Shown: positions 5,997 through 47,980 of the stretch, one piece after another
How the letters are laid out: every line of letters starts with the position of its first letter
Position numbering within the stretch: the stretch's first letter is position 1
Origin: Natronococcus sp. CG52
GTDB taxonomy: Archaea; Halobacteriota; Halobacteria; Halobacteriales; Natrialbaceae
Assembly (NCBI RefSeq): GCF_023913515.1
Contig: NZ_CP099391.1
Location: 3,224,001-3,288,000 of the forward strand
Length of the DNA stretch: 64,000 nt
Direction of reading: 5' to 3'
Translations under genes and position numbers: made by a program
Notes under the pieces: model-generated
The model's input: the letters and a program-made list of their open reading frames with translations, nothing else
What the model was told of the DNA's origin: nothing
Databases searched by the model: none

Positions 5997-6407
5997 ATGA
6001 ACGGCGGTAGCGACATGACCCTGGCGTTCGAGCTCGAAGCACTGAAAGAGCTCGCCTCGCCCGAGAGCGTCTTCGAGGACGCCAGAGGGTGGAGCGAGTA
6101 CATCGGCGTCGTCTCCGAGAAACCGACCTACGTCGTCACGAACTACACGCGAAAGAACCGCATCCGGCAGGACTTCTTCTCCGGCCCCCGCGGGAAACGC
6201 GAGAGTCTCGAGGCCGTCAAGGACCAGTTCGACACCGATCGGCACGTCCTGATCGGCGCCAGCGACGAGGACGAGCAGCTGGCCGAGGACGTCGACTGGG
6301 AGTACCTCCCCGTCGAGGACGCCGCCGACGCGGCCGACTGGATCCTTGCGACGAACGTCGAGGACGAGGAGGACGACGCCGAACCGGTCCGAGACGACTG
6401 GCCCTGA
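5997..6407 (+). CDS. Conserved haloarchaeal protein, paralogue of the gene at 40865-41617 (DUF7124-like)
   Basis: A 136-residue acidic protein. Its core aligns along its whole length with the C-terminal half of the protein at 40865-41617: MTLAFELEALKELASPESVF here against MTVAFTFRAVQRLATPAAVF there, then shared W-S/A-x-[YW]-I-G-[IV]-V, D-F-F-[ST]-G and D-W-E-[YF]-[LI]-P motifs. Because the longer paralogue sits in a molybdenum-enzyme operon, a related role is possible but unproven. An alternative start at the internal Met (residue 6) would also fit. The family is probably the one named DUF7124; no biochemical function is known to me. Confidence 0.8.
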   Translation: MNGGSDMTLAFELEALKELASPESVFEDARGWSEYIGVVSEKPTYVVTNYTRKNRIRQDFFSGPRGKRESLEAVKDQFDTDRHVLIGASDEDEQLAEDVDWEYLPVEDAADAADWILATNVEDEEDDAEPVRDDWP

Positions 6408-32357: not shown

Positions 32358-32965
32358 GCGCGATCACCTCCGCTCGAGCGGTCGCTTCCGGAAGATTCCA
32401 GGTCTTCCGACGTTCGCCTCGTTTCACTCGGCTCACCGCCGTCGGAGCGCACCTCCGACGAGGATCGCGAACCGTCCCCGGAGCGCTTCGCGCTCCGACG
32501 CGGATCGCGCTCGCTTCGCTCGCGCTCGCCGTTGGTTCGCTCACCGCCGTCGGTCGCGACGTCGGCGTCGGCGCTCCGCGGCGGCTGCATGCGATCCGCG
32601 AGCCGTCGGAACGCGGCCCAGTGGATCACCACCATCACGATGATGAAGATCCCCATGATCACGTCGGCGAAGTGGATCAGGGCGATCAGCGCGTTGAGCA
32701 CCGGCTCCGTGTTGCCGGCGACCCACTCGGAGCCGATCCCGCCGCCGCCGACCGTCGGTCGAACGCGCATGACGGTCTGGTAGAACGGCCCCTGGAAGAG
32801 CCAGACGGAGCCGACCGCGACGACGACGCTCGTGACCGCGGCGATCCAGAACGCCGCCCTGTCGGAGAGTCCGCCCGTCGCCTCGTCGGTCGTCGCCCGC
32901 GGATCGGCCGGCCGGTCGGAGCCGCCGTCGCGTTCCGCGTCGGAGTGTGTCGGCTCGCCGGTCAT
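32354..32965 (-). CDS. Small membrane subunit of the formate-dehydrogenase-like complex, with palindrome-expanded tail
   Basis: A 203-residue protein with two or three hydrophobic helices (about residues 38-62 and 92-118; VSVVVAVGSVWLFQGPFY, ADVIMGIFIIVMVVIHW). It sits between the ferredoxin and cytochrome b genes and overlaps each by four bases. From about residue 140 the protein turns into low-complexity Ser/Arg/Asp/Glu sequence, encoded by the tandem GC palindromes at 32441-32530. Function: presumably a membrane anchor; I do not recognise a named family. Confidence 0.75.
   Translation of the reverse strand: MTGEPTHSDAERDGGSDRPADPRATTDEATGGLSDRAAFWIAAVTSVVVAVGSVWLFQGPFYQTVMRVRPTVGGGGIGSEWVAGNTEPVLNALIALIHFADVIMGIFIIVMVVIHWAAFRRLADRMQPPRSADADVATDGGERTNGERERSERDPRRSAKRSGDGSRSSSEVRSDGGEPSETRRTSEDLESSGSDRSSGGDRA
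32441..32530 (-). repeat. Cluster of GC-rich palindromes inside a coding sequence
   Basis: Hairpins in a row: GTCGGAG-n5-CTCCGAC at 32441-32459, GGAGCG-CTTCG-CGCTCC at 32480-32496, and a run of GCTCGC/GCGAGC units to about 32527. The first has the same arms as the hairpin in the broken gene at 54160-54175. They are in the last third of an open frame, so the palindromes are translated. Confidence 0.5.
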
Positions 32966-33636
32966 GACTCGAAGAGGTCGGCGTCCTCACCGAAGATGAT
33001 CCGCATGGACTCCTCGTTGAAGAACGTCCCGCTGTCGCGTTTGTCGAGTTCGTCGGCGATGTCGCCGGCCGAGCCGACGAGCAGCGCGTTCGTCGCGCAC
33101 TCGTCGACGCAGGCCGGCGCTTTTCCGACGTCCTGGCGCTCCTTGCAGCCGGTACACTTGTCCATCGTCCCGCCGGTGCCGACGATGTCGGCCGACCCGT
33201 CGTTGCTCTCGGGGAACTGCGGCGCGCCGAACGGACAGCCCGAGAGGCAGTACTGGCAACCGACACAGAGGTCTTCCTCGAGGTCGACGAAGCCGTCGTC
33301 GCTCTTCCGGAGGGCGTCGGTCGGACAGACCGAGACGCAGGGCGCCTCCGCGCAGTGATAACACTGCATCGGCAGGTTCGTCTCGCCGGGGTTGACGCCG
33401 TCCTCGAGGGCCTCGGTCTGCTGGCCGTTGTAGCCGTCCTCGGCTTCGCGGCCCTCGAGCATCTTCACGACGTCGATCCGTTCGCGTTTGGGGTCGACGT
33501 CCCAGGTTCGCTTGCACGCGACGACGCAGGCGCCGCAGTCGATACAGGCCTCGACGTCGGGGAAGAGGCGCATCCCCTCCCCGACGCCCATCGTCCCGTC
33601 GCCGATTCGGTTCCGTTGTGGTTCGTTCGTTGACAT
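32962..33636 (-). CDS. Iron-sulfur (four 4Fe-4S cluster) subunit, FdhB/NrfC-like
   Basis: A 224-residue polyferredoxin with four cysteine clusters in order: CIDCGACVVACKRTW (start), CYHCAEAPCVSVCPTDAL, CVGCQYCLSGCPFGAP and CTGCKERQ ... CVDECAT. This is the pattern of beta subunits that carry electrons from a molybdopterin subunit to a membrane cytochrome b. It begins six bases after the alpha-subunit gene ends and overlaps the next gene by four bases, so it is one operon. Confidence 0.92.
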   Translation of the reverse strand: MSTNEPQRNRIGDGTMGVGEGMRLFPDVEACIDCGACVVACKRTWDVDPKRERIDVVKMLEGREAEDGYNGQQTEALEDGVNPGETNLPMQCYHCAEAPCVSVCPTDALRKSDDGFVDLEEDLCVGCQYCLSGCPFGAPQFPESNDGSADIVGTGGTMDKCTGCKERQDVGKAPACVDECATNALLVGSAGDIADELDKRDSGTFFNEESMRIIFGEDADLFES

Positions 33637-33642
33637 TGTCTG

Positions 33643-36600
33643 TTAGTCGTCTGCGAGCATGTCGTGCTCCCGTACGTCGAACTGTTTCTGGAGCCCGAGC
33701 CCTTCCTCGTCCTGCGGGAAGTCGATGAATTCCATGTCGTACTCCTCGATCCGTTCCGGCGTGGCCGGCAGGACCCTGACCATACCGACCTTCGTCTCCT
33801 GCATCTGGGTCTCGGCGTCGAACCCGCTGGCGGTGATGAGGTTCGCGGAGTCGCCGATCGCCATGGGTTCCGTGCCGTCGGGCCAGTTGTCGCGCTGGTC
33901 CTTACCGCCGAAGACGCCGCCCCAGTGGTACGGCAGGAAGATCTCCCGCGGATGCGGCTCGGCCGTCTCGGTCCGGTAGTCGACTTTCGCCTTCACGAGG
34001 ATCGCGCTCTTCCCGCTGTCGGCGGGTTCGATGATGACCATGTCCTCGCCGCCGGTGATCCCGAGTTCCTCTGCCATGTCGGGGTGGATCTCGGCGTACA
34101 TGTGCGGCTGGACGTCGGCCGTGAGGCGGTTGTTACGCGTCTCGGAGCCGCCGCCCTGGTGTTCGACCTGGCGTCCGGAGGTCATGATGACGTCGAAGCC
34201 CTCCTCGTGAACGCGCTGGGTCGCTTCCTGCTGAGTCGCGGCGTTGTTCTGGTCGAGACGGAAGACGTTCTGCTGGTGGCCGTTCGCCGGCCACTCCTCG
34301 GTGATCCCGAGGTGCGGACTCTGAATCGGCTCCCGGTGGATCGGGACGGTATCGAGGAAGTTCCACGCGACAGCGCGGGCCTTCCCGCGACCCGTCGGCG
34401 GATCGGGCTGTTCGTTGTCGAACTGCTCCCAGAACTCCATGTCGAGGTCGTGGCCGTACTCCTCCTCGAGCGCCTGGGCCGCGTCGAACGCCGAGTACTC
34501 GTCGCTGAGCGCGTACTCGACGGGGAGCGACATCTGGTGGGGTTCCGTGACGTCGTCCGGGAGGGTCGTCGTGTAGTGGGGGTACTGGGGAACGCCCTCG
34601 ACCTCGCCGTCCCACCACTCGGGTTCGTACGGCTCGCGGAGCAGGTCGAGGCCCTCCTCGCCGTGTTCCTCGTAGGTTTCGCTGAGCGGGTACTCCTGGT
34701 CGATGTCCATCTCCTCCCACTCTTCGGGGGTAGGTGCCTCGATCCCCCAGTTCGTCCGGAAATCGTGGCCGCCCTCGCGGGGGTCCACGTCGTCGCGCCA
34801 GATGATCGGCGTCCCGGTGTGACCCTCGCCCCAGTAGGGCCAGGGGAGCATCCAGTACTCGCCGTCGACCGGGGTTCCCGGCGCGTCGGCGCGCAGATTC
34901 TCGGTGGTAAAGAGGTGGTCGTTGTCCCGGTGTTGCTGGAGCTTCTCGGGGGACTGCTGGTAGCCGATCGAGCGAGCGCCGAGGTTGATCTCCCGAAGCG
35001 CGTCCTCGTAGGTGCTCTTCCCGTTGTACATCCCGTCGCCCGTACCCCAGTTGAAGTGCTCGCCGAAGCCGAGGGTCTCGGCGAGTTCCTGGATGATCTG
35101 GAGGTCCGGCTTGGAGTTGTGCGCCGGCGGGCCGGCGGGTTCGCTCCACTGAACCGACCGGTGTGTGTTCGTCAGCGACCGGTAGTGTTCGTACTGGCTC
35201 GAGGCCGGCAGCAGGAGGACGTCCGAGTCGTCCGGCAGCGTGCCGGCGACGGCGGGGAAGACGTCGACGACGACCAGCAGGTCGAGCGCCTCCATCGCCC
35301 GCTTCATCTTCTCCATCTCGCTGATGGAGTTCGCCGAGTGACCCCAGAAGAAGACCATCTTCAGCGGGTCCGGCTGGTAGAGGTTCGACTCGTGGAGTCG
35401 ATCCTCCTGGCCGAGCGCCGCCTCGTACCAGCGAGCGACGGTGAGCCCGGGCTGGAACATCATCGACCGGGTCGTCACATCCTCCGGTCGGTGCGAGTCC
35501 TGTTGCTCCTCCCCGAGTTCGTCCTGCACCTCGAGGTCGACCTCGGCGGGCGGGATCGTCTCCTCCTCCTCGCCGAGTTCCTCCCAGAGGTCCTCCGGCA
35601 TCGACCCGAATCGGTCGTAGAGTTCGTCGAAGTCCGTGCTGCCGTCGGTCCACGGACTCTCGGTCCAGACGTTCGCCCAGTGGGTCCACGACCCGGCCGA
35701 GGTCACCGAGTAGTAGCCCGGCAGGTACTCGGCGTCGACGCCGAGATCGGTCGCCCCCTGGACGTTCGCGTGGCCGCGCATGACCTGGAGGCCGCCGCCG
35801 CTCCGTGCGGCGCTGCCCGAGGCCAGGCTGAGCAGGGCGTACGAACGGATGTTCTGGGTGCCGTTGTTGTGCTGGGTGCCGCCCATCGCCCACTCGATCT
35901 GGACGTTGGGCTTGTTCTCGATAATCATGTCGCCGATCTCCTCGAGTTCCTCGACGCCGATCCAGGTCAGCTCGGAGACCGTCTCGAGGTCGTACCGGTC
36001 GAGTTCCTCGTAGGCGTCCTCCCAGCCCTGAACGCGGTCGTCGAGCATCTCCTCCTCGAGTTCGCCCTGCTCGTCGAGGTAGTTGATCAGCCCCATCATG
36101 ATCGCGACGTCCGTGCCGGGCCGCATCCGATAGAAGTAGTCGGCGTGAGAGGACGTCTTCGTGTAGCGGGGGTCGATCGAGACGATCGTGCCGCCGCGGG
36201 CCTGCCCTTCGAGAATGTGCTGCATCGCGACCGGGTGGGCTTCGGCCGGGTTCTGCCCGATAATGATGTTGAGATCGAAGTTGCGGTAGTCGTTGACCGT
36301 GTTCGTCATCGCGCCGAAACCCCAAGTGTTCGCGAGACCGGCGACGGTCGGCGAGTGACAGATCCGGGCCTGGTGGTCGACGTTGTTCGTGCCCATGAAC
36401 GCGCCCAGTTTGCGGAACGCGTAGGCCTCCTCGTTGGCGTGGTGGGCGCTGCCCAACATCATGACGCTGTCGGGGCCGTACTCCTCGAGGATCTCCTCGT
36501 ACCGCTCGGCGATGAGATCGTACGCCTGGTTCCAGGAGATCTTGCGCCACTCGCCGTCGACCTTCCGCATCGGATGCTTGAGTCGCTTCGGCGAGTGTTC

Positions 36601-36903
36601 GGTCTCGAGGATGCCCGCACCCTTCGAGCAGAGCGAGCCGTTGTTGATCGGGTTCTCCTTCCAGGATTCCATCGCGACGAAGGAGTCGCCCTCCTTGACG
36701 GCCTTGAACCCGCAGCCGACGGAGCAGTAGTTACAGATCACCTTCGCCGTCTCGGCGTCGTCGTGAACGCCGTCGGTCTCGTCTTCGTCGTCGCTGAGGA
36801 CGTGACCCGTCGCCCCGCTTCCGAGGATCGTCGCCCCGGCCAGTGCGGATGCTTTCATGAACGACCGACGGTCGAGGTCGAGCGTTACTGGTTCAGCACT
36901 CAT
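33643..36903 (-). CDS. Molybdopterin oxidoreductase alpha subunit, formate-dehydrogenase-like
   Basis: A 1086-residue protein. It starts with a twin-arginine motif (RRSFMK), so it is exported folded. Residues 57-92 hold the four cysteines of the N-terminal 4Fe-4S cluster (CNYCSVGC ... LCSKG). The metal ligand is Cys182 in ARICHSPTVAGL; formate dehydrogenases have Sec or Cys at this place, and the adjacent His-Ser-Pro-Thr-Val-Ala pattern is a formate-dehydrogenase signature. The long C-terminal part has bis-MGD-binding segments (SGRQVEHQG, ILVKAKV). The enzyme class covers formate oxidation to CO2, but other substrates cannot be excluded. It is the first gene of the operon and diverges from the polyferredoxin gene at 37136. 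Confidence 0.88.
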   Translation of the reverse strand: MSAEPVTLDLDRRSFMKASALAGATILGSGATGHVLSDDEDETDGVHDDAETAKVICNYCSVGCGFKAVKEGDSFVAMESWKENPINNGSLCSKGAGILETEHSPKRLKHPMRKVDGEWRKISWNQAYDLIAERYEEILEEYGPDSVMMLGSAHHANEEAYAFRKLGAFMGTNNVDHQARICHSPTVAGLANTWGFGAMTNTVNDYRNFDLNIIIGQNPAEAHPVAMQHILEGQARGGTIVSIDPRYTKTSSHADYFYRMRPGTDVAIMMGLINYLDEQGELEEEMLDDRVQGWEDAYEELDRYDLETVSELTWIGVEELEEIGDMIIENKPNVQIEWAMGGTQHNNGTQNIRSYALLSLASGSAARSGGGLQVMRGHANVQGATDLGVDAEYLPGYYSVTSAGSWTHWANVWTESPWTDGSTDFDELYDRFGSMPEDLWEELGEEEETIPPAEVDLEVQDELGEEQQDSHRPEDVTTRSMMFQPGLTVARWYEAALGQEDRLHESNLYQPDPLKMVFFWGHSANSISEMEKMKRAMEALDLLVVVDVFPAVAGTLPDDSDVLLLPASSQYEHYRSLTNTHRSVQWSEPAGPPAHNSKPDLQIIQELAETLGFGEHFNWGTGDGMYNGKSTYEDALREINLGARSIGYQQSPEKLQQHRDNDHLFTTENLRADAPGTPVDGEYWMLPWPYWGEGHTGTPIIWRDDVDPREGGHDFRTNWGIEAPTPEEWEEMDIDQEYPLSETYEEHGEEGLDLLREPYEPEWWDGEVEGVPQYPHYTTTLPDDVTEPHQMSLPVEYALSDEYSAFDAAQALEEEYGHDLDMEFWEQFDNEQPDPPTGRGKARAVAWNFLDTVPIHREPIQSPHLGITEEWPANGHQQNVFRLDQNNAATQQEATQRVHEEGFDVIMTSGRQVEHQGGGSETRNNRLTADVQPHMYAEIHPDMAEELGITGGEDMVIIEPADSGKSAILVKAKVDYRTETAEPHPREIFLPYHWGGVFGGKDQRDNWPDGTEPMAIGDSANLITASGFDAETQMQETKVGMVRVLPATPERIEEYDMEFIDFPQDEEGLGLQKQFDVREHDMLADD

Positions 36904-37135: not shown

Positions 37136-39274
37136 ATGAATACGGGGTCCTTCATCTGCTCGTGTGCGGGGACGTGCGATATCGATCTGGAGGGCGCTCG
37201 CGAGGGGGTCGACGGCGTCGACGTCGCCGCCAGTTCCCGGCTGCTCTGTCAGGATGGACTCGCCGGGATGGAACACGTCATCGAGGAGCACGAATTGGAT
37301 CAGCTCATCGTCACCTGTCCGGAGGCGACTGCCCAGAAGAAGATCAAAGAGACGGCGACGGAGCAGGGTCTCCACCCCGACGCCGTCGAGTTCGTCGACC
37401 AGCGCGAGAGCGCCGGCTGGGTCCACGACGAGGCGGAGGCAACCGCGAAGACCGCTCGCCTGATCAACGCGCGAAACGCCGGCCTCGAGGAGGAAGCGAT
37501 CCACCAGTCGCTGTCTCACGAGACCGGCGATACCGTCGCCGTCGTCGGCGACCCCGAAACGGCGGCCGGACTCGCCGAGAGCGCCGACGTGACGCTGATC
37601 GCCGACGGAAACGATTTCGCCGACGCCGAGTACGACCTGGACGAGGTGGCGATCGAACGCGGCCGCGTCGTCGAGGTCGACGGCAGTTTCGGCGAGTTCG
37701 AACTCACGCTCCGCAGTCGAGTCACCGAGGACTGTATCTCCTGTATGGAGTGCGTCCACGAGGGGCCACCGGGGAAGGTGACACGCTACCCCGTCGACAT
37801 CGACCCCGACGTCGAGGACGAGACGCTACCGGAACTCTGTCCGACCGACGCCATCGACCTCGAGGGCGTCGACCGAACGATAGAGGCCGACCAAGTCGTC
37901 TACCCGAACGCGACCGATTCGGCTCGCGGCGGTCGGATCGGCTTCTACACCGCGCCGCTCACCGCCTCGAAGATCGCGGCGATCGAGCGGCAACTGGGCG
38001 GGATCACGAAACCGGAGTTCCTCGACCTCGAGATGGACGTCTGTGCCGCCGGCGACTCGAGCCAGATGGGCTGTAACGAGTGCGTCGAGGCCTGTCCGCA
38101 CGGCGCCGTCGAGCGCTCGCGGATCGACGAGGTCGAGTTCCACACCGAACTCTGCCAGAACTGCGGGGCCTGTACGAGTTCCTGTCCGACGGGCGCGACC
38201 ATGCTCCGGGAGCCGAGCAACGAGCGCATCGCCCGCGAGGTCGAGGCGTTGCTCGTCCCCGACGAGGTCGAGCGGAGCTGGATTCCGGGTCGATCCGGGT
38301 CGGGCATCGACGAGGCCGTCGTCGCCTTCGTCTGTTCGGAGAGCGCCGAGGACGCACTCCAGGAGTACGGCCGACTCGCCGCGTCCGGCAGGGCCGAGGT
38401 CGACTACCCGCCGATTCTGCCGGTCCGAGTCAACTGTACCGACACCGTCGGCGAGGCCCACGTCGTGCACGCGCTGGCGGCCGGCGCGGACGGCGTCGCG
38501 ATCGTCGGCTGCGGCGGGAGCTGTCTGCACTCCGGTCCGGACCCGAAGGCCGAACTCGTCGACCGGCTCAACCGCGCCACCGCAGACCTCGAGCTCGGCG
38601 AGCGCGTCGAGTTCTTCGCCCCCTCGGCCGACGACCCGGCCGAGTTCGTCGGCGCCGTCTCGGCGTTCGTCGACGATCTCGAGAACTCCCCCGTTCCAGC
38701 GGGCGAGCACGAGGCGACCGGCGGGATCGACGACCCCGACCGCGAGAATCCCGCCTTCGACAGTCACGGCTGGACGCTCGAGAGCGTCCGCACGATCCTC
38801 GAGCACGTCGAGCCCGAACGGGACGTCATCCGCGGCCTGAAGGACTTCGGACAGGTCGAGGTGAACGACGCCTGTACGCTCACGCCGACGTGTTCGAACC
38901 TCTGTCCCACGGACGCGCTCCGTCGAACGAAGACCGGCCTCGAGTTCAACCACGAACGCTGCGTGAGCTGCGATCTCTGTGAAGAGGGCTGTATCGAGGA
39001 CGCGATCACCGTCCACGAGGGACTCGATCTCTCGCTGCTGCCCGAAAACCAGCCCGACGACGCGGACGACCCGGCGTGGTCGACCGTGTTCGAGGGATCG
39101 ATGCTCGAGTGCCGCAACTGCGGGAAGGAGTTCACGAGCGAGCGCTCCGCGGAACGGATCAAGGGCGAGGTCGGCGACCTCGTCTCCGGGATGGCACCCC
39201 ACGCCGACGGCAGCATCTTCGACTACTGTTCGGACTGTCGATCGAAGTTACTGTACCGCCGCAACGACGACTGA
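37136..39274 (+). CDS. HdrA/MvhD-like polyferredoxin fusion
   Basis: A 712-residue multi-domain iron-sulfur protein. Residues 7-130 resemble the HdrA N-terminal domain (CSCAGTC, LLCQDG, IVTCPEATAQ, then SAGWVHDEAEATAKTARLI). The FAD domain that should follow is reduced to a short beta strand (VAVVGDPETAAGLAES, 134-149), lacking GxGxxG. Next come ferredoxin clusters: CISCMEC with CP at 235, CNECVEACP (313-321), CQNCGACTSSCP (340-351). An MvhD-like domain (about 393-515; Cys400, 434, 459, 463) follows, then a second ferredoxin pair (580-590; CVSCDLCEEGC 609-619) and a terminal zinc-ribbon-like pair (CRNC 659, CSDC 698). Probably shuttles electrons in the adjacent molybdoenzyme system. Confidence 0.85.
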   Translation: MNTGSFICSCAGTCDIDLEGAREGVDGVDVAASSRLLCQDGLAGMEHVIEEHELDQLIVTCPEATAQKKIKETATEQGLHPDAVEFVDQRESAGWVHDEAEATAKTARLINARNAGLEEEAIHQSLSHETGDTVAVVGDPETAAGLAESADVTLIADGNDFADAEYDLDEVAIERGRVVEVDGSFGEFELTLRSRVTEDCISCMECVHEGPPGKVTRYPVDIDPDVEDETLPELCPTDAIDLEGVDRTIEADQVVYPNATDSARGGRIGFYTAPLTASKIAAIERQLGGITKPEFLDLEMDVCAAGDSSQMGCNECVEACPHGAVERSRIDEVEFHTELCQNCGACTSSCPTGATMLREPSNERIAREVEALLVPDEVERSWIPGRSGSGIDEAVVAFVCSESAEDALQEYGRLAASGRAEVDYPPILPVRVNCTDTVGEAHVVHALAAGADGVAIVGCGGSCLHSGPDPKAELVDRLNRATADLELGERVEFFAPSADDPAEFVGAVSAFVDDLENSPVPAGEHEATGGIDDPDRENPAFDSHGWTLESVRTILEHVEPERDVIRGLKDFGQVEVNDACTLTPTCSNLCPTDALRRTKTGLEFNHERCVSCDLCEEGCIEDAITVHEGLDLSLLPENQPDDADDPAWSTVFEGSMLECRNCGKEFTSERSAERIKGEVGDLVSGMAPHADGSIFDYCSDCRSKLLYRRNDD

Positions 39275-39906
39275 TGCGCATGGACATGGAAGCTATCTAC
39301 GAGGCTCGCCTCGATCTGGTCGAGTTCCTCGTCACGGCGACCCACGACGCACCGGGAGAAGCGTTCATCGAAGATATCCTCGAAGGCGACGTAATCGGCC
39401 CGTCCGGAACCGTCAACGAGGAACTCGGCGAGGGGTTCGACTTGCTCGAGCAGTTCATCGAGGCGAACGAGGATCGGCCGATCGAGGATGTCGTCGACGA
39501 ACTCGAGGTCGAATACACCCGGCTGCTCGTCGGTCCCCGACCGCCGGTGACCCCCCACGAGACGTACTTCCGCGGGGAGATGCAGTACCTGGGCGAGGGG
39601 CTGCCGAAGGTCGAGGCGAGTTACGGTGCCGCCGGCTGGAGCCCGCCCGAAAACTATCCCGAAGAGAGCGACCACGTCGCGGTCGAACTCGCCTTCCTCC
39701 GGCACCTGATTCGATCCCAGAAACGGGGTCGCGAGGAAGCGCTCGGCTACCAACGCGTCTTCCACGAGGAACACCTCACTCACTGGCTCGACGACTGTGC
39801 TGCGGCGATCGCCGCGGAGGCGAACGCGACCTTCTACGAGGCGGTCGGACACCTGCTCGCCGGGTACAACGAGTTCGAAGAGGAAATCGCGCTCCAGGTG
39901 AGCTAA
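39274..39906 (+). CDS. TorD/DmsD-like molybdoenzyme maturation chaperone
   Basis: A 210-residue protein. It resembles the TorD family, which binds the signal and apo-form of twin-arginine molybdoenzymes while the cofactor is inserted. Typical segments: VEYTRLLVGPRPPVTPHETYF, an aromatic segment at about residue 86-95 (RGEMQYLGEG), then HVAVELAFLRHLI and WLDDCAAAIAAEA. Its ATG (39274) overlaps the stop codon of the polyferredoxin gene by one base (TGATG), so the two genes are translationally coupled. Its target is probably the divergent operon's Tat-exported alpha subunit. Confidence 0.88.
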   Translation: MRMDMEAIYEARLDLVEFLVTATHDAPGEAFIEDILEGDVIGPSGTVNEELGEGFDLLEQFIEANEDRPIEDVVDELEVEYTRLLVGPRPPVTPHETYFRGEMQYLGEGLPKVEASYGAAGWSPPENYPEESDHVAVELAFLRHLIRSQKRGREEALGYQRVFHEEHLTHWLDDCAAAIAAEANATFYEAVGHLLAGYNEFEEEIALQVS

Positions 39907-40153: not shown

Positions 40154-40528
40154 TCAGGGCGGGCCGTCCGGCGTCTGCCGATCGTCGTCGAGAAACGCGC
40201 GAGCGAACAGATCCACGTGGAGCTTCAGCAGGCGCTCGGGTTCGAGTCCCGTCTCCGCTCCCTGTCCCTCGAGGAAGGACGCGAGGTCGTCGCTCGGCTC
40301 GTAGCGCACGGTAGTCTCCTCGAGTTCGAACTCGACGTCGACGGCGCCCGAGACGAGGTGTTCGATCTCCAGGAGCGCCTGCTCGACTTTGGCCTCGACG
40401 GCGGCCGGCTCCGTCATGACGCGCGAGTCGCCCCACTGCTCGGCGGCCTCGAGGAACCGATCGCTCAGCTCGATCGTGAGCTGCGACGCGTCCGATTCGT
40501 CGTCGGTGTTTGGCTGTTCGTCCGACAT
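40154..40528 (-). CDS. Small acidic protein, unknown
   Basis: A 124-residue protein rich in Asp/Glu with helical stretches (LTIELSDRFLEAAEQWGDSR; KVEQALLEIEHLVSGAVDV). A frame open from 40729 exists, but the first 67 residues of it are the antisense-like Arg-rich kind; ATG 40528 is the sensible start. It begins five bases after the stop of the two-helix protein's gene, suggesting co-translation. Family not recognised. Confidence 0.6.
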   Translation of the reverse strand: MSDEQPNTDDESDASQLTIELSDRFLEAAEQWGDSRVMTEPAAVEAKVEQALLEIEHLVSGAVDVEFELEETTVRYEPSDDLASFLEGQGAETGLEPERLLKLHVDLFARAFLDDDRQTPDGPP

Positions 40529-40533
40529 CGCTG

Positions 40534-40794
40534 TTACTCGGTCGGCGGGAACTCTTCGGGGCCCGGACTCGTCTCGCCGAGTTCCCCGTAGACGAGCACG
40601 ACCATCAGTCCGAGCGCGAACAGGACGGCCAGTCCGATCAGGCCGACGACGCCGCTCTGTCCGACCCAGTCGCCGTACACCACGTCCCCCATGCTGGAGG
40701 AAACGTTCAGGATCGTCAGGAAGATCCACGCCCCGAACAGCAGGAGGCCGACCAGCACCAGTTGGTTCTGCTGAAACGCCGTTCGAAGTCCCAT
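40534..40794 (-). CDS. Two-helix membrane protein, unknown
   Basis: An 86-residue protein with two clear membrane helices (LVLVGLLLFGAWIFLTIL, about 12-29, and VVGLIGLAVLFALGLMVVLV, about 49-68) and an acidic C-terminus. It sits between the DUF7124-like gene and the small acidic gene on the same strand (gaps of 70 and 5 bases). It may anchor a soluble partner at the membrane. Family not recognised. Confidence 0.65.
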   Translation of the reverse strand: MGLRTAFQQNQLVLVGLLLFGAWIFLTILNVSSSMGDVVYGDWVGQSGVVGLIGLAVLFALGLMVVLVYGELGETSPGPEEFPPTE

Positions 40795-40864: not shown

Positions 40865-41617
40865 TCAGGACTCGAGCTCCCAGCCGGCCTTTTCGGCCGC
40901 CGTCTCGAGCGGGATGAACTCCCAGTCGGCGGCCTCGGCGATCGCCTCGTCCTCAGTAGTGCCGATGACAACCATCCGTTCCGCGTAGAACATCGAGGTG
41001 CGGTCGATTTCCCGCAGTCGCTCGCTCGGAGTCGTCCCGCTGCCGGTGAAGAAGTCCGCGTCGACGGTGTGGCTCCGCTGGAACTTCGTGATCGCGTGGG
41101 TGTCGACGTCGCCGACGATGCCGATCCAGTCGGCCCAGGAGTAAGCGTCCGCGAAGACGGCCGCGGGGGTCGCCAGCCGCTGGACCGCCCGGAACGTGAA
41201 GGCGACCGTCATGTCGTCGACGCCGCCGCCGTGGGGGCCGTCGGCAGCCGATCCCGCCGGTCGCGGCTCGGCCGTCGTTCCCGTCTTGTCGCTCGAACCG
41301 CCGGCTCCCGCGCCGCCGCTCTGCGTCGGGATGCCGACGGGCCCGTCCCTGTTCGCCCGCGGGACGTGCGGCGCGGGCTGTGACGAGGCGTCACTCTCGA
41401 CGTCGGGTTCGTCTGCTGCGGGAACGCTCGCCGCCTCGTCCGGCGACTCCGAGTCCGTCTCTCGCTGCTCGACCGCAGGTCCGGTGGTCTGGGGCTGATC
41501 CGGTTCCTCCTCGGGACTGCCCTCGCCGCGCCAGAGCCAGTCGCCGGGGTTCGGTTCGTCGGTCTCCTCCTCGTCGTCCCCCACGTCGAGGTCGTCGAGA
41601 TCGATTCGTTCAGTCAT
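40865..41617 (-). CDS. DUF7124-like protein with acidic N-terminal extension, paralogue of 5997-6407
   Basis: A 250-residue protein. The first 135 residues are acidic and low in complexity (GDDEEETDEPNPGDWLWRGE), the last 115 match the protein at 5997-6407 over its full length (MTVAFTFRAV ... WADWIGIVGD, DFFTGSG, DWEFIPLETAAEKAGW). Its ATG overlaps the stop of the AOR-like gene (41610-41617), so the two are coupled in one operon. The close link suggests that it serves the AOR-like protein. The family is probably DUF7124; function unknown. Confidence 0.75.
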   Translation of the reverse strand: MTERIDLDDLDVGDDEEETDEPNPGDWLWRGEGSPEEEPDQPQTTGPAVEQRETDSESPDEAASVPAADEPDVESDASSQPAPHVPRANRDGPVGIPTQSGGAGAGGSSDKTGTTAEPRPAGSAADGPHGGGVDDMTVAFTFRAVQRLATPAAVFADAYSWADWIGIVGDVDTHAITKFQRSHTVDADFFTGSGTTPSERLREIDRTSMFYAERMVVIGTTEDEAIAEAADWEFIPLETAAEKAGWELES

Positions 41618-43391
41618 CGTCGGATACTCTGTGCGTAGATGGGTCGAACTCGAGGACCTCGAGTTCGTACCGTTCGATCGTCTCGCGCGTCGGTCGGCCG
41701 TGTTCGTCCCAGCCGCGCCGGTCGTAGTAGCACTCGAGGGTTCGATCGAACGACTCGGGGGCGATCGCCGCGCCGTCGTTCGGTCCGCCCTCGAGCGGTT
41801 CGGTCAGTCGCTGCGGCAGCGCGTCGTCCTCGCGCGTGAACCCCTCGCGGACGTTGAACAGCCGGATCAGCGTCCAGATTCGCGCGCCGATCCGGCGAAG
41901 CTCCTCGGGTTCGTACTCGCGACCGATCGCCGCGAGCCAGTCCGCGCCGAGCGTCGCCGACAGCGCCTCGCCGAAGAAGTCGTCGGCGACGAGACTCCAG
42001 AGCACCGCCCGGCGGTCCTGTTCCGCGATCACCGCGTCCACGCGGTCGGTGTGGTTCCAGTCGGTTCCCTCGAGCGCCTCCACCTCGACCGGGCGGGCGC
42101 GACGGTGGCAGGCGCCGCGATCGCTCGTCGCGTACGCGAGGGCCATCGCCGACGCCCCGCGCGGATCGTACGACGGCAGCGCCATTCCCTTCACCGACGG
42201 GATCAGGTCGTCGCCGCCGTACTCGTCGGCCGCCGCGTCGAGCCCGTCGGCGAGGGTGTCGCCGAGCGACGTCGAGCGCGACGCGATTTCCTCGATAAGC
42301 TGGCGGGCGTCGTCCTCGTCGCCGAACGAGAGATCGCGCTCGAGCAGTCCCGTCTCGCTCGCGCGGATCGCCCACGCGACGGCGTTGCCGCCGGAGATCA
42401 CGTCCAGCGACAGTCGGTCGCAGATCGAGCCGAGCGTCGCGACGGCGTCGAAGTCGTCGATGCCCAGGCCCGCGCCGAGCGAGATCGGCGTCGAGCCCCG
42501 CGGCACGCTCTCGCCGTCGCCGCTCTCGACCTGAAAGCCACCGGGAACGGGATCGTCGGCGCGCTCGCGGTCGTGGGCGGCGTCGCGAACCGCCTCGATG
42601 CCGATCCCGTCGGCGCCCTCGAACCGGCCCTCCTGCCAGCCGTGGGTCGGGAGGACCCCGACCTCGTTCGCGAAGTCTAGCGTCTCGACGGTCTCGCTGG
42701 CGGCGTGCCAGCGGCCGGTGTCGTCGGTGGCGAACGCCGCCTCGTACCGTTCGCGGAGGTCGCGGAGGTCGTCGTCGAGTTCCGGCGGGTCGTCGTGCGC
42801 GACGAGCGCCTTCAGCCGTTTCGCTCCCATCACCGCGCCCGCGCCGCCGCGACCGGCGTGGTGATCGCCGCCGTCCGAGGCGATCGTGGCGTACGAGACG
42901 CCGTTCTCCCCGGCGGGACCGATACACGCGACCGCGGCGTCGGGGACCCGCTCGTCGGTTTCTCGAGCGTCGAGTCCCCACCACTCCTCGGCGGGTTCGA
43001 TCGAGACCTCGCCGTCGGTGATCGAGAGCGCGACGGGACGATCGGCGCGACCGGAGACGACGATTCCGGCGTGGTCGCCGAGCGATCCGGCGAGGCGTCC
43101 GGCCATCGATCCTCCCGCGTAGGAGTCCAGAAACGCGCCCGTCAACGGGGATTTCGTCACGACGACGTACCGCTGCTCTCCCGGGAGATACCCGGTCAGC
43201 GGTCCGGTGAGAAAACAGAGCACGTTCTCGTCGCCGAGCGGAGCGGCGCCGGCCGCCAGTTCCTCGTACAGGTAGCGCGCGCCGAGGCCCTTGCCGCCGA
43301 CGTACTTCCGGCGCCACGACTCCGGCACCGGTTCACTCCGCACGGACTCGTCCGCGAGATCGACGCGAACGACGGTCTCCCCCAGTACCAT
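41610..43391 (-). CDS. Aldehyde-ferredoxin-oxidoreductase-family protein lacking the usual 4Fe-4S cysteines
   Basis: A 593-residue protein of the tungsten/molybdenum-pterin AOR family: GGKGLGARYLYEEL (32-45), GPLTGY, RGGAGAVMGAKRLKAL (181-196), LDVISGGNAVAWAI (329-342) and SDRGACHRRARP (423-434). Family members hold a 4Fe-4S cluster with CxxCxxxC plus one more Cys. Here the first motif's place (about 281-298, reading PVPGGFQVESGDGESVPR) has no cysteine, and the second (about 463-472, AVLWSLVADD) has none either. The cofactor pocket seems kept but the cluster cannot form in the usual way. The start is 43391, because the frame open farther upstream is unlike a protein. Confidence 0.88.
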   Translation of the reverse strand: MVLGETVVRVDLADESVRSEPVPESWRRKYVGGKGLGARYLYEELAAGAAPLGDENVLCFLTGPLTGYLPGEQRYVVVTKSPLTGAFLDSYAGGSMAGRLAGSLGDHAGIVVSGRADRPVALSITDGEVSIEPAEEWWGLDARETDERVPDAAVACIGPAGENGVSYATIASDGGDHHAGRGGAGAVMGAKRLKALVAHDDPPELDDDLRDLRERYEAAFATDDTGRWHAASETVETLDFANEVGVLPTHGWQEGRFEGADGIGIEAVRDAAHDRERADDPVPGGFQVESGDGESVPRGSTPISLGAGLGIDDFDAVATLGSICDRLSLDVISGGNAVAWAIRASETGLLERDLSFGDEDDARQLIEEIASRSTSLGDTLADGLDAAADEYGGDDLIPSVKGMALPSYDPRGASAMALAYATSDRGACHRRARPVEVEALEGTDWNHTDRVDAVIAEQDRRAVLWSLVADDFFGEALSATLGADWLAAIGREYEPEELRRIGARIWTLIRLFNVREGFTREDDALPQRLTEPLEGGPNDGAAIAPESFDRTLECYYDRRGWDEHGRPTRETIERYELEVLEFDPSTHRVSDDD

Positions 43392-43480: not shown

Positions 43481-44209
43481 TCAGACGACGTCGACGACCG
43501 GATCGTCGTCGATCAGTCGGGTGAGGACGACGCGCGAAACGTCTCGCCGGTCGCGGATCTCCCCCGCAATCTCGCGGGCCGTCTCCTCGAGTGCGGGCGT
43601 ATCTACCATGTTTATCAGTGGAACGACGGCCGCACTGTCGGGAACGTCCTTGCAGCCGCCCCGGTCGCTCGTCAGGACCGTCGCGACGTCGGTCGCCGAG
43701 ATCCGATCGCCGGGCTCGAGGTCGGTGAGCGCCGCGACCCGCTCGGGGCGGTGGACGTGTTCCTCGTCCAGTTGCTCGCCGACGATCTTGGCGCTCGCGA
43801 TCGGGACGACGACGTCGGTCGCGGCCGGCAGTTGCGGTTCGTCCTCGTCGGGAGCCTTGAACCAGCGCGTCCGCGCGCCGTCGGCCTTGACGACGACCGA
43901 GACGTCCGCCTCGAGGTCTCGCGCGAAGTCGTCGACGGTCTCGGGATCGTAGCCGAGGTAGCGGTCCGATCCCTCGCGGCCCGCGACGACGCCGATCGGC
44001 CACGCGTCGGTCGATCGGATCGCATCGAGCGGGCGGTCCGTCACCGTCACGTCACTCACTCGCTCCTCGAAGGGCGGAATTCGAACGGTCGCGGTCACGA
44101 CCGCGCGCTCGAGGCGGGCGGCGAGCGCGTAGAGCGTCGATTTCTTGCCGCCGGCTCCGACGACGCAGGTCAGGTTGCCGTCCGCGTGCAGCGCTTTCAC
44201 GAGATCCAC
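43481..44209 (-). CDS. YqeC-like selenium/molybdenum hydroxylase accessory protein
   Basis: A 242-residue protein starting at GTG 44209. A P-loop-like GAGGKKS (18-24) is followed by ALAARLERAVVTATVRI, and the middle has the family's VVVKADGARTRWFKAP and PIASAKIVG segments, then NMVDTP. In bacteria YqeC occurs with selenium-dependent molybdenum hydroxylases and is proposed to help insert a selenium-type sulfur ligand into the cofactor; the function here is inference. No selD or yqeB is in the window. It precedes the AOR-like gene by 89 bases on the same strand. A frame open to 44386 exists but adds low-complexity residues. Confidence 0.75.
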   Translation of the reverse strand: MDLVKALHADGNLTCVVGAGGKKSTLYALAARLERAVVTATVRIPPFEERVSDVTVTDRPLDAIRSTDAWPIGVVAGREGSDRYLGYDPETVDDFARDLEADVSVVVKADGARTRWFKAPDEDEPQLPAATDVVVPIASAKIVGEQLDEEHVHRPERVAALTDLEPGDRISATDVATVLTSDRGGCKDVPDSAAVVPLINMVDTPALEETAREIAGEIRDRRDVSRVVLTRLIDDDPVVDVV

Positions 44210-47128: not shown

Positions 47129-47746
47129 CTACTCGACGGCGCCGAAGAAGCCGCTCGAGTCGTCGTCCTCCTCGGTGTCATCGTCGTCGTCTTCATCGTC
47201 GTCGTCTTCATCGTCGTCATCGCTCTCGTCGTCGTCTTCATCGTCGTCAGATTCCTCGTCCTCGTCACTGGAGTCGTCATCTTCGTCGTCGGACTCCTCG
47301 TCATCCTCGTCGCTCTCGTCTTCGTCGTCAGATTCTTCGTCGTCAGACTCTTCGTCCTCGTCATCGCTCTCGTCTTCGTCAGCAGACCCCTCATCATCAC
47401 CACTGGAGTCGTCATCTTCGTCCTCGTCGTCGTCGCTTTCGTCCTCGTCGTCATCGCTCGTCGATTCGTTTCCGTCCGGATCGTCGTCGTCCGATTCGCT
47501 TCCTTCCTCGTCCGTCTCGGTGCCGTCATCATCGTCAGGAATCGAGACGGCGTCGGACGGGTCCTCGTCCGCTCCGGGGAGTTCGTCGACGGCCCCGCCG
47601 GATCCCGAACCGTTCCCGCCGAGGCCGAGACCGACGCCGGCGACGGTCATCCCGATGGCGACGAGGACGACCAGTGCCGTCGCAAGAACGGCACCGGTCG
47701 AGACGCCGTCGGACGGATTGCGCTCACGTCCTCGCTCGGTTGACAT
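47129..47746 (-). CDS. Membrane-anchored protein with long Ser/Asp/Glu repeat
   Basis: A 205-residue protein: one membrane helix near the start (about 17-40; VLATALVVLVAIGMTVAGVG), a glycine-rich linker, then about 130 residues of nearly pure Asp, Glu and Ser, ending SSGFFGAVE. The DNA of the tail is a microsatellite-like run of GTCGTC and TCGTCA units, which makes length variation by slippage likely. Such tails are typical of haloarchaeal cell-surface or disordered anchor regions. Function unknown. The start at 47746 (MSTERGRERNPSDG) is favoured. Confidence 0.65.
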   Translation of the reverse strand: MSTERGRERNPSDGVSTGAVLATALVVLVAIGMTVAGVGLGLGGNGSGSGGAVDELPGADEDPSDAVSIPDDDDGTETDEEGSESDDDDPDGNESTSDDDEDESDDDEDEDDDSSGDDEGSADEDESDDEDEESDDEESDDEDESDEDDEESDDEDDDSSDEDEESDDDEDDDESDDDDEDDDDEDDDDDTEEDDDSSGFFGAVE

Positions 47747-47980
47747 CGTACGACGATAGATACAGGGAACCGTGATTGTTAAGCGCTCCAAACCGTCGAA
47801 ACGGCGATCGATCGCTCTGAGCGTCCGGATATCGGGACGGTCGCGCGCGCTCCGGAACGAATCGCTGCCAGTGACTCAGTCGCGCCTCGAGTAGGCGGCG
47901 AGTAACGGGGCAGTTCCGGAGGTGGGACGGTGTAGGTCGGAACCGAAACGACTACCGGAACGCGTTCGTACGGCTGTCGC

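Follow-up and report, generated by a model that had tools for sequence, protein, structure and literature searches.

The stretch of Natronococcus sp. CG52 DNA analysed here (64,000 nucleotides; "the window", whose coordinates are used throughout) carries at 41610–43391 a minus-strand gene for a protein of the aldehyde oxidoreductase (AOR) family that lacks the cysteines of the family's iron-sulfur cluster. The cysteine motif of AORs is described as present in 99% of family sequences and in every known structure (PMC10413684). A first, sequence-only reading had offered two alternatives: the electrons leave the cofactor in another way, or the protein is not an oxidoreductase.

Cluster ligands, catalytic residues and fold

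The open reading frame is exactly delimited by an ATG at 43391 and a stop codon at 41610, and encodes 593 aa. Pfam analysis placed the N- and C-terminal AFOR domains, PF02730 (219 bits, 6.6e-65) and PF01314 (325 bits, 1.1e-96), across nearly the whole length of the protein, far above the cut-off. Among solved structures, the closest by sequence are those of the bifurcating AOR 9mqx, Pyrococcus AOR (1aor) and FOR (1b25), whereas on NF007354 (PRK09849, the E. coli-type AOR), which we take to be YdhV, the protein scored 147 bits against a cut-off of 868. Homology puts the protein in the AOR family, and, judged by its sequence, the features of a ferredoxin-linked AOR oxidoreductase are missing.

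Except where a paper is cited, the residue roles in Pyrococcus AOR follow the 1995 structure: four cysteines as cluster ligands, Glu313 and His448 as the acid-base pair, and N93, R182 and A183 as Mg/pterin positions. When the protein is aligned to 1AOR, C288 has no counterpart (a gap), and C291, C295 and C494 correspond to Asp280, Gly284 and Asp470, so that none of the four ligands is present; the catalytic E313 is replaced by Ser300. Inspection of the sequence found no CxxCxxxC motif and cysteines at positions 59, 156, 324, 428 and 554 only. The relevant sites are as follows.

41610..43391 (-): AOR-family protein without cluster cysteines, 593 aa (PF02730 and PF01314; AlphaFold2 model)
42540..42554 (-): D280 to G284, codons 280–284, at the AOR site of the second and third cysteines of CxxCxxxC, the first being a gap (alignment)
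42492..42500 (-): R-G-S, codons 298–300, in place of E311-Y312-E313, which includes the AOR acid-base Glu (alignment)
42105..42110 (-): C-H, codons 428–429, the kept equivalent of active-site His448 with its Cys neighbour (C 51/51, H 51/51)
41982..41984 (-): Asp, codon 470, at the fourth cluster cysteine, C494 (alignment)

Orthologs collected from 100 related haloarchaeal genomes share 51–92% identity, and 51 of them make up the detailed alignment. All four ligands are missing in each of these 51 and also in each of 54 additional full-length members taken from named genomes. The replacements of C295 by Gly, of C494 by Asp and of E311-Y312 by R-G are fixed (51/51 each), and the position of E313 is held by Ala, Ser or Gly in all 51; of the acid-base pair, only His448 is kept (51/51). 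In the same alignment, 8/8 sister-group sequences and 15/15 other AORs retain the CxxCxxxC motif together with the fourth Cys and the Glu, and Glu at 311 and 313, like C494, is present in all sequences outside the clade. Since the four ligands are absent across the whole clade, the usual 4Fe-4S cluster cannot form. The sequence-only reading, which had argued this from the lack of cysteines at about residues 281–298 and 463–472 and from only five ungrouped cysteines in the protein, was right on both positions and on the conclusion, and an alignment with AOR sequences, a check of the kind it had called for, bears it out in 51/51 orthologs. Coordination of a cluster elsewhere in the protein is disfavoured: the cysteines are dispersed through the sequence and, of the five, just C324 and C428 are fixed throughout the clade.

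When 84,980 species genomes were scanned for more members, sequences were added from taxa including Natrialba, Haloarcula, Haloferax, Halorubrum, Halobellus and Halobacterium, and all of these are cluster-less. The four cysteines and the Glu are present in all relatives at 35–44% identity, which come from Halobacteria, Thermoplasmata, Bathyarchaeota, Clostridia and Desulfobacteraceae; at ≤45% identity, no full-length relative departs from CxxCxxxC, the fourth Cys or the Glu. In the phylogenetic tree, the 105 cluster-less full-length sequences, which because of species overlap between the two collections are not 105 independent genomes, form one clade (local support 0.83, stem 0.57), and the sister of this clade is a Cys-bearing haloarchaeal group. 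The dN/dS values among close relatives are 0.12–0.31; the clade is under purifying selection. Sequencing error or a pseudogene is ruled out by the 105 members with the same loss and by the low dN/dS. In the assemblies of two clade members, L165 and L170, the gene seems to be cut short or frame-shifted.

Twenty positions are fixed in the clade and rare elsewhere, several of them at the former cluster and active site; R298, G299, R430, W465 and D470 are among these residues. The change of D489 to Trp was dropped as a clade-specific mark, since Trp also occurs there in several Cys-bearing outgroup sequences. Halorubrum-type members have acidic insertions in the former cysteine loop; insertions of about 15–50 residues, acidic or other, were seen in this loop in L135, L157, L160, L161, L065 and L066. 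The Natronococcus genome encodes five further AORs, all canonical with CxxCxxxC. Away from the window, a Cys-bearing AOR of the canonical type (L001; G000:C1:576244-580471) lies about 2 kb from a short gene resembling that of formate dehydrogenase (FDH).

The AlphaFold2 model, built from 75 sequences (pLDDT 94.8, pTM 0.94), superposes on 1b25, 1aor and 9mqx with Z 50–51 and rmsd 1.9–2.0 over 574–582 residues (Foldseek, VIA-align), the values for 1aor being Z 50.4 and rmsd 1.9 over 574 residues. With the Aromatoleum AorB (8c0z) included among the tungsten AOR/FOR structures, the predicted likeness spans 568–582 residues at Z 42–51. The structure prediction proposed by the sequence-only reading thus suggests that the three-domain AOR fold is kept, although the input alignment held Cys-bearing relatives, so that the model alone cannot prove a functional cofactor pocket.

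The AOR pocket holds two nucleotide-free molybdopterins (MPT) per metal (PMC10413684). Several family residues of this pocket are conserved in the clade: R76, whose equivalent touches an MPT phosphate in AORAa (PMC10413684), is kept in 51/51 sequences of the detailed alignment and differs in just 3 of the additional ones; H448, R444 and D343 are kept in 51/51 and D338 in 48/51, and the Cys447 equivalent is invariant. In these respects the clade resembles the AOR/FOR family, and it differs in lacking the four ligands and the acid-base Glu. The positions N93, R182 and A183 are altered, as they also are in the sister group that has the cysteines, and cofactor binding by the clade protein therefore stands as a prediction.

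Gene neighbourhood and co-occurrence with formate dehydrogenase

On the minus strand, the order of genes is yqeC, 89 bp, the AOR-like gene, an 8-bp overlap, the gene of a DUF7124 protein, and the genes of two small proteins. These and the molybdoenzyme genes further along the window are listed below.

43481..44209 (-): YqeC, encoded in the same direction 89 bp upstream of the AOR-like gene; P-loop GTPase fold predicted (TIGR03172 1.3e-48; AlphaFold2 pLDDT 96.1)
40865..41617 (-): DUF7124 protein, overlapping the AOR-like gene by 8 bp (PF23439 1.6e-39)
40534..40794 (-): small hydrophobic protein of 86 aa, probably in the membrane (conserved neighbour family c6, 23/84 distinct loci)
40154..40600 (-): small acidic protein, start codon uncertain (family c5, 26/84 distinct loci)
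39127..39906 (+): TorD/NarJ-type molybdoenzyme chaperone (PF02613 2.6e-23; NCBIfam TorD 5.1e-12, below cut-off)
37136..39274 (+): HdrA/FlpD-like polyferredoxin, 712 aa (PF02662 FlpD and Fer4 domains; partial HdrA2 match)
33643..36903 (-): putative formate dehydrogenase alpha subunit, 1086 aa, ARICHS active-site motif (TIGR01591 5.3e-129, below equivalog cut-off)
32962..33636 (-): iron-sulfur electron-transfer subunit adjoining FDH (ORF; family c12, 9/84 distinct loci)

The 712-aa polyferredoxin beside a respiratory FDH amounts to a heterodisulfide-reductase-like module in a haloarchaeon, and an HdrA/FlpD-like protein occurs in 34 of the 100 related genomes. Elsewhere in the window, a short ORF at 5997–6407 (+) resembles, by eye, the DUF7124 domain of the AOR neighbour, and about half of the protein predicted at 47129–47791 (-) is Asp/Glu in a low-complexity repeat.

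Across 84 distinct loci, genes for FDH, YqeC, MobA or other FDH-operon proteins lie near the clade gene in 69. The individual counts, which are lower bounds because the flanks were mostly 7–8 kb and some contigs end early, are 49 for FDH, 33 each for YqeC and the HdrA/FlpD-like protein, 30 for DUF7124, 20 for MobA and 15 for TorD. DUF7124 is encoded immediately downstream (offset +1) in 28 loci. The neighbouring proteins with the FDH-type Cys-His motif are probably formate dehydrogenases, as judged by motif and family scores. They are of three architectures (before duplicate removal): the respiratory ARICHS type in 24 loci, the NuoG type in 13 and a short type of about 710 aa in 11. Because three unlike architectures occur as neighbours, the link is to features common to FDHs, and a role as an electron-transfer subunit of one FDH type is disfavoured. 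In the loci of Cys-bearing relatives no match to YqeC, FDH or DUF7124 was found, and MobA was found near one only, in a Bathyarchaeota MAG; as these loci mostly cover about 2 kb on each side, the missing neighbours are weak evidence.

Among the 100 genomes, 51 have the clade gene, 64 have YqeC and 65 have FDH (a match at 1e-60), and all 51 clade-positive genomes have both YqeC and FDH (Fisher 1.3e-16 for YqeC and 6e-16 for FDH, values that ignore phylogeny). In six genera (4, 7, 29, 35, 41 and 45) clade-positive and clade-negative species are mixed, and the gene occurs there only together with YqeC and FDH. The clade gene is present in 33/33 genomes with a respiratory-type FDH, versus 18/32 of those with other FDHs only. 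It is missing from 14 of the 65 FDH-positive genomes, including some with NuoG-type or short FDHs, and is therefore not universally needed; where the loci of clade-negative genomes were read, the FDH was of the short or NuoG type. In 97/100 genomes YqeC and FDH are either both present or both absent: 63 of the 64 YqeC-positive genomes have FDH, and 63 of the 65 FDH-positive ones have YqeC. MobA is also encoded in 18 of the 35 FDH-negative genomes. Based on its presence only in FDH-bearing genomes, often adjoining FDH genes, the clade protein is probably a helper for the FDH metal cofactor rather than an aldehyde oxidoreductase.

Absence of FdhD and the YqeC neighbour

FdhD is essential for the FDHs of E. 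coli and carries sulfurated bis-MGD (PMC6239281). No FdhD (PF02634) was found in the 100 related genomes or in 292 genomes sampled from class Halobacteria, while the same model matched the positive controls E. coli, B. subtilis, Methanocaldococcus, Methanosarcina and Sulfolobus. PF02634 had no match in the Natronococcus genome either, and the protein itself matches only AFOR families at E ≤ 0.001. With FdhD absent, Halobacteria must mature FDH by another route, unless they have an FdhD that has diverged too far to be detected.

The sequence of YqeC contains invariant GAGGKK, KADGAR and N-x-VD motifs. Its AlphaFold2 model (pLDDT 96.1) has MeaB/IcmF G domains as the top Foldseek hits (best E 3e-4, TM about 0.4) and matches SRP GTPases with Z 12.8 (VIA-align); a search against PDB sequences returned nothing notable. 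At the level of predicted fold, this hints at a likeness to SIMIBI-type GTPases, which include cofactor chaperones such as MeaB.

The literature treats YqeC as marking selenium-dependent molybdenum hydroxylases (PMC2276186), whose maturation system (SelD, YqeB, YqeC; Haft and Self 2008) has YqeC (TIGR03172) in common with the present locus. The two settings differ in that YqeC occurs here in 64 genomes with a partner that looks, by sequence, like an FDH of the DMSO-reductase family rather than a hydroxylase. SelD and YqeB score above cut-off in the same 7/100 genomes, six of which have a second YqeC, and the second copies adjoin selD. In the genome of Natronococcus sp. CG52, SelD had no match above cut-off and YqeB no match. 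Because SelD and YqeB are confined to seven genomes, the FDH-linked YqeC is selenium-independent as far as these markers show, and the selenium-hydroxylase context suggested by YqeC was rejected for this locus. In C. difficile, deletion of yqeC gave no clear phenotype (PMC11448449), which counts against the maturation role proposed below, although the setting there is a selenium system. YqeC itself may be the true substitute for FdhD.

A candidate role in FDH maturation and its alternatives

Between the two alternatives of the sequence-only reading, a protein that is not an oxidoreductase is favoured over another electron exit, since the acid-base Glu is gone in 51/51 members and both neighbours and co-occurrence appear to point to FDH cofactor maturation. 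The best explanation, to which we give about an even chance, is that a cluster-less AOR has been repurposed to hold or pass on a bis-molybdopterin metal cofactor in FdhD-independent maturation of FDH. The AOR pocket, suited to bis-MPT without nucleotides, would hold a bis-MPT-metal intermediate (W or Mo); MobA would then add two GMPs, and the putative GTPase YqeC, with the TorD-type chaperone where present, would gate the transfer to apo-FDH. Having lost its cluster and acid-base Glu, the protein would have no redox role but would keep the pocket, so that it may be suited to carry the intermediate without redox chemistry. The loss and its conservation, the fold as modelled, the linkage to FDH and YqeC and the lack of FdhD are observations; cofactor binding, carrier role and the order of the steps are all inferred from these associations. 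YqeC follows FDH more tightly than the clade protein does, which is the main reason why confidence stays evenly divided. The fuller version, in which the protein is the central bis-MPT-metal carrier of an FdhD- and SelD-independent pathway (YqeC GTPase, MobA and cluster-less AOR) maturing the FDHs of Halobacteria, is put forward more tentatively and is somewhat less likely to hold.

A precedent for part of this scheme is E. coli YdhV, also of the AOR family: when bis-Mo-MPT is extracted from it, MobA can turn this in vitro into bis-MGD, which activates apo-TorA (PMC9103625). YdhV has no known service to FDH, unlike the role proposed for the clade. FdhD and FdsC would share the proposed job, that of a cofactor-holding protein needed for FDH (PMC6239281), although the clade protein has no sequence match to them. 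Moreover, FdhD holds sulfurated bis-MGD, whereas the AOR pocket would suit nucleotide-free bis-MPT (PMC9103625). In the literature covered, which lies mostly outside the subscription journals, nothing on point was found on haloarchaeal FdhD, YqeC-FDH, cluster-less AORs or haloarchaeal tungsten enzymes; PDB entry 9q1t indicates that work on Haloferax tungsten enzymes exists.

The strongest rival, which has a modest chance of being correct, is a true tungsto- or molybdo-enzyme working without the cluster, either through a non-redox reaction at the metal (hydration, isomerisation, sulfur or oxygen transfer) or by direct electron exchange with a partner such as the HdrA/FlpD-like polyferredoxin. 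The invariant metal-side equivalents of His448, Cys447 and Arg444 and the predicted intact fold are consistent with this, the fixed R298, G299, R430, W465 and D470 suggest a rebuilt active site, and the polyferredoxin is a neighbour in 33/84 loci. However, the acid-base Glu is gone throughout, and a polyferredoxin found in only 34/100 genomes is too rare to serve as partner in all 51 clade-positive ones.

Rather unlikely is a non-catalytic, FDH-specific chaperone without cofactor that, like TorD, would grip apo-FDH or MobA through the AOR surface. Such a role would fit the FDH linkage combined with altered N93, R182 and A183, as well as a former cluster loop that tolerates acidic insertions of 15–50 residues in Halorubrum. 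The same three changes in a sister group with ligands and Glu are, however, no sign of cofactor loss, and the residues of the pocket interior are still invariant.

We consider improbable a regulatory or storage protein, that is, a cofactor or oxyanion sensor tuning FDH expression or a store of W/Mo cofactor: the operon-like layout with small proteins annotated without function (DUF7124, c5, c6) would suit it, but Pfam reports no DNA-binding or signalling domain, and storage is hard to tell apart from the carrier model. A functionless, decaying pseudoenzyme or annotation artefact, which the loss of ligands and catalytic Glu might suggest, is scarcely credible for a monophyletic, class-wide clade with fixed replacements and low dN/dS.

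The protein, probably a helper for the FDH cofactor, belongs to a class-wide clade built around the absence of the four-cysteine motif that is typical of 99% of AORs. The analysis also exposes a gap in the biology of Halobacteria, which have FDH genes and no recognisable FdhD, so that another factor must sulfurate and insert the cofactor. The clade gene, together with YqeC and MobA, is a concrete candidate for FdhD-free sulfuration and insertion of the FDH cofactor. If true, this would account for the presence of YqeC without selenium genes, and would represent an enzyme fold turned cofactor carrier.
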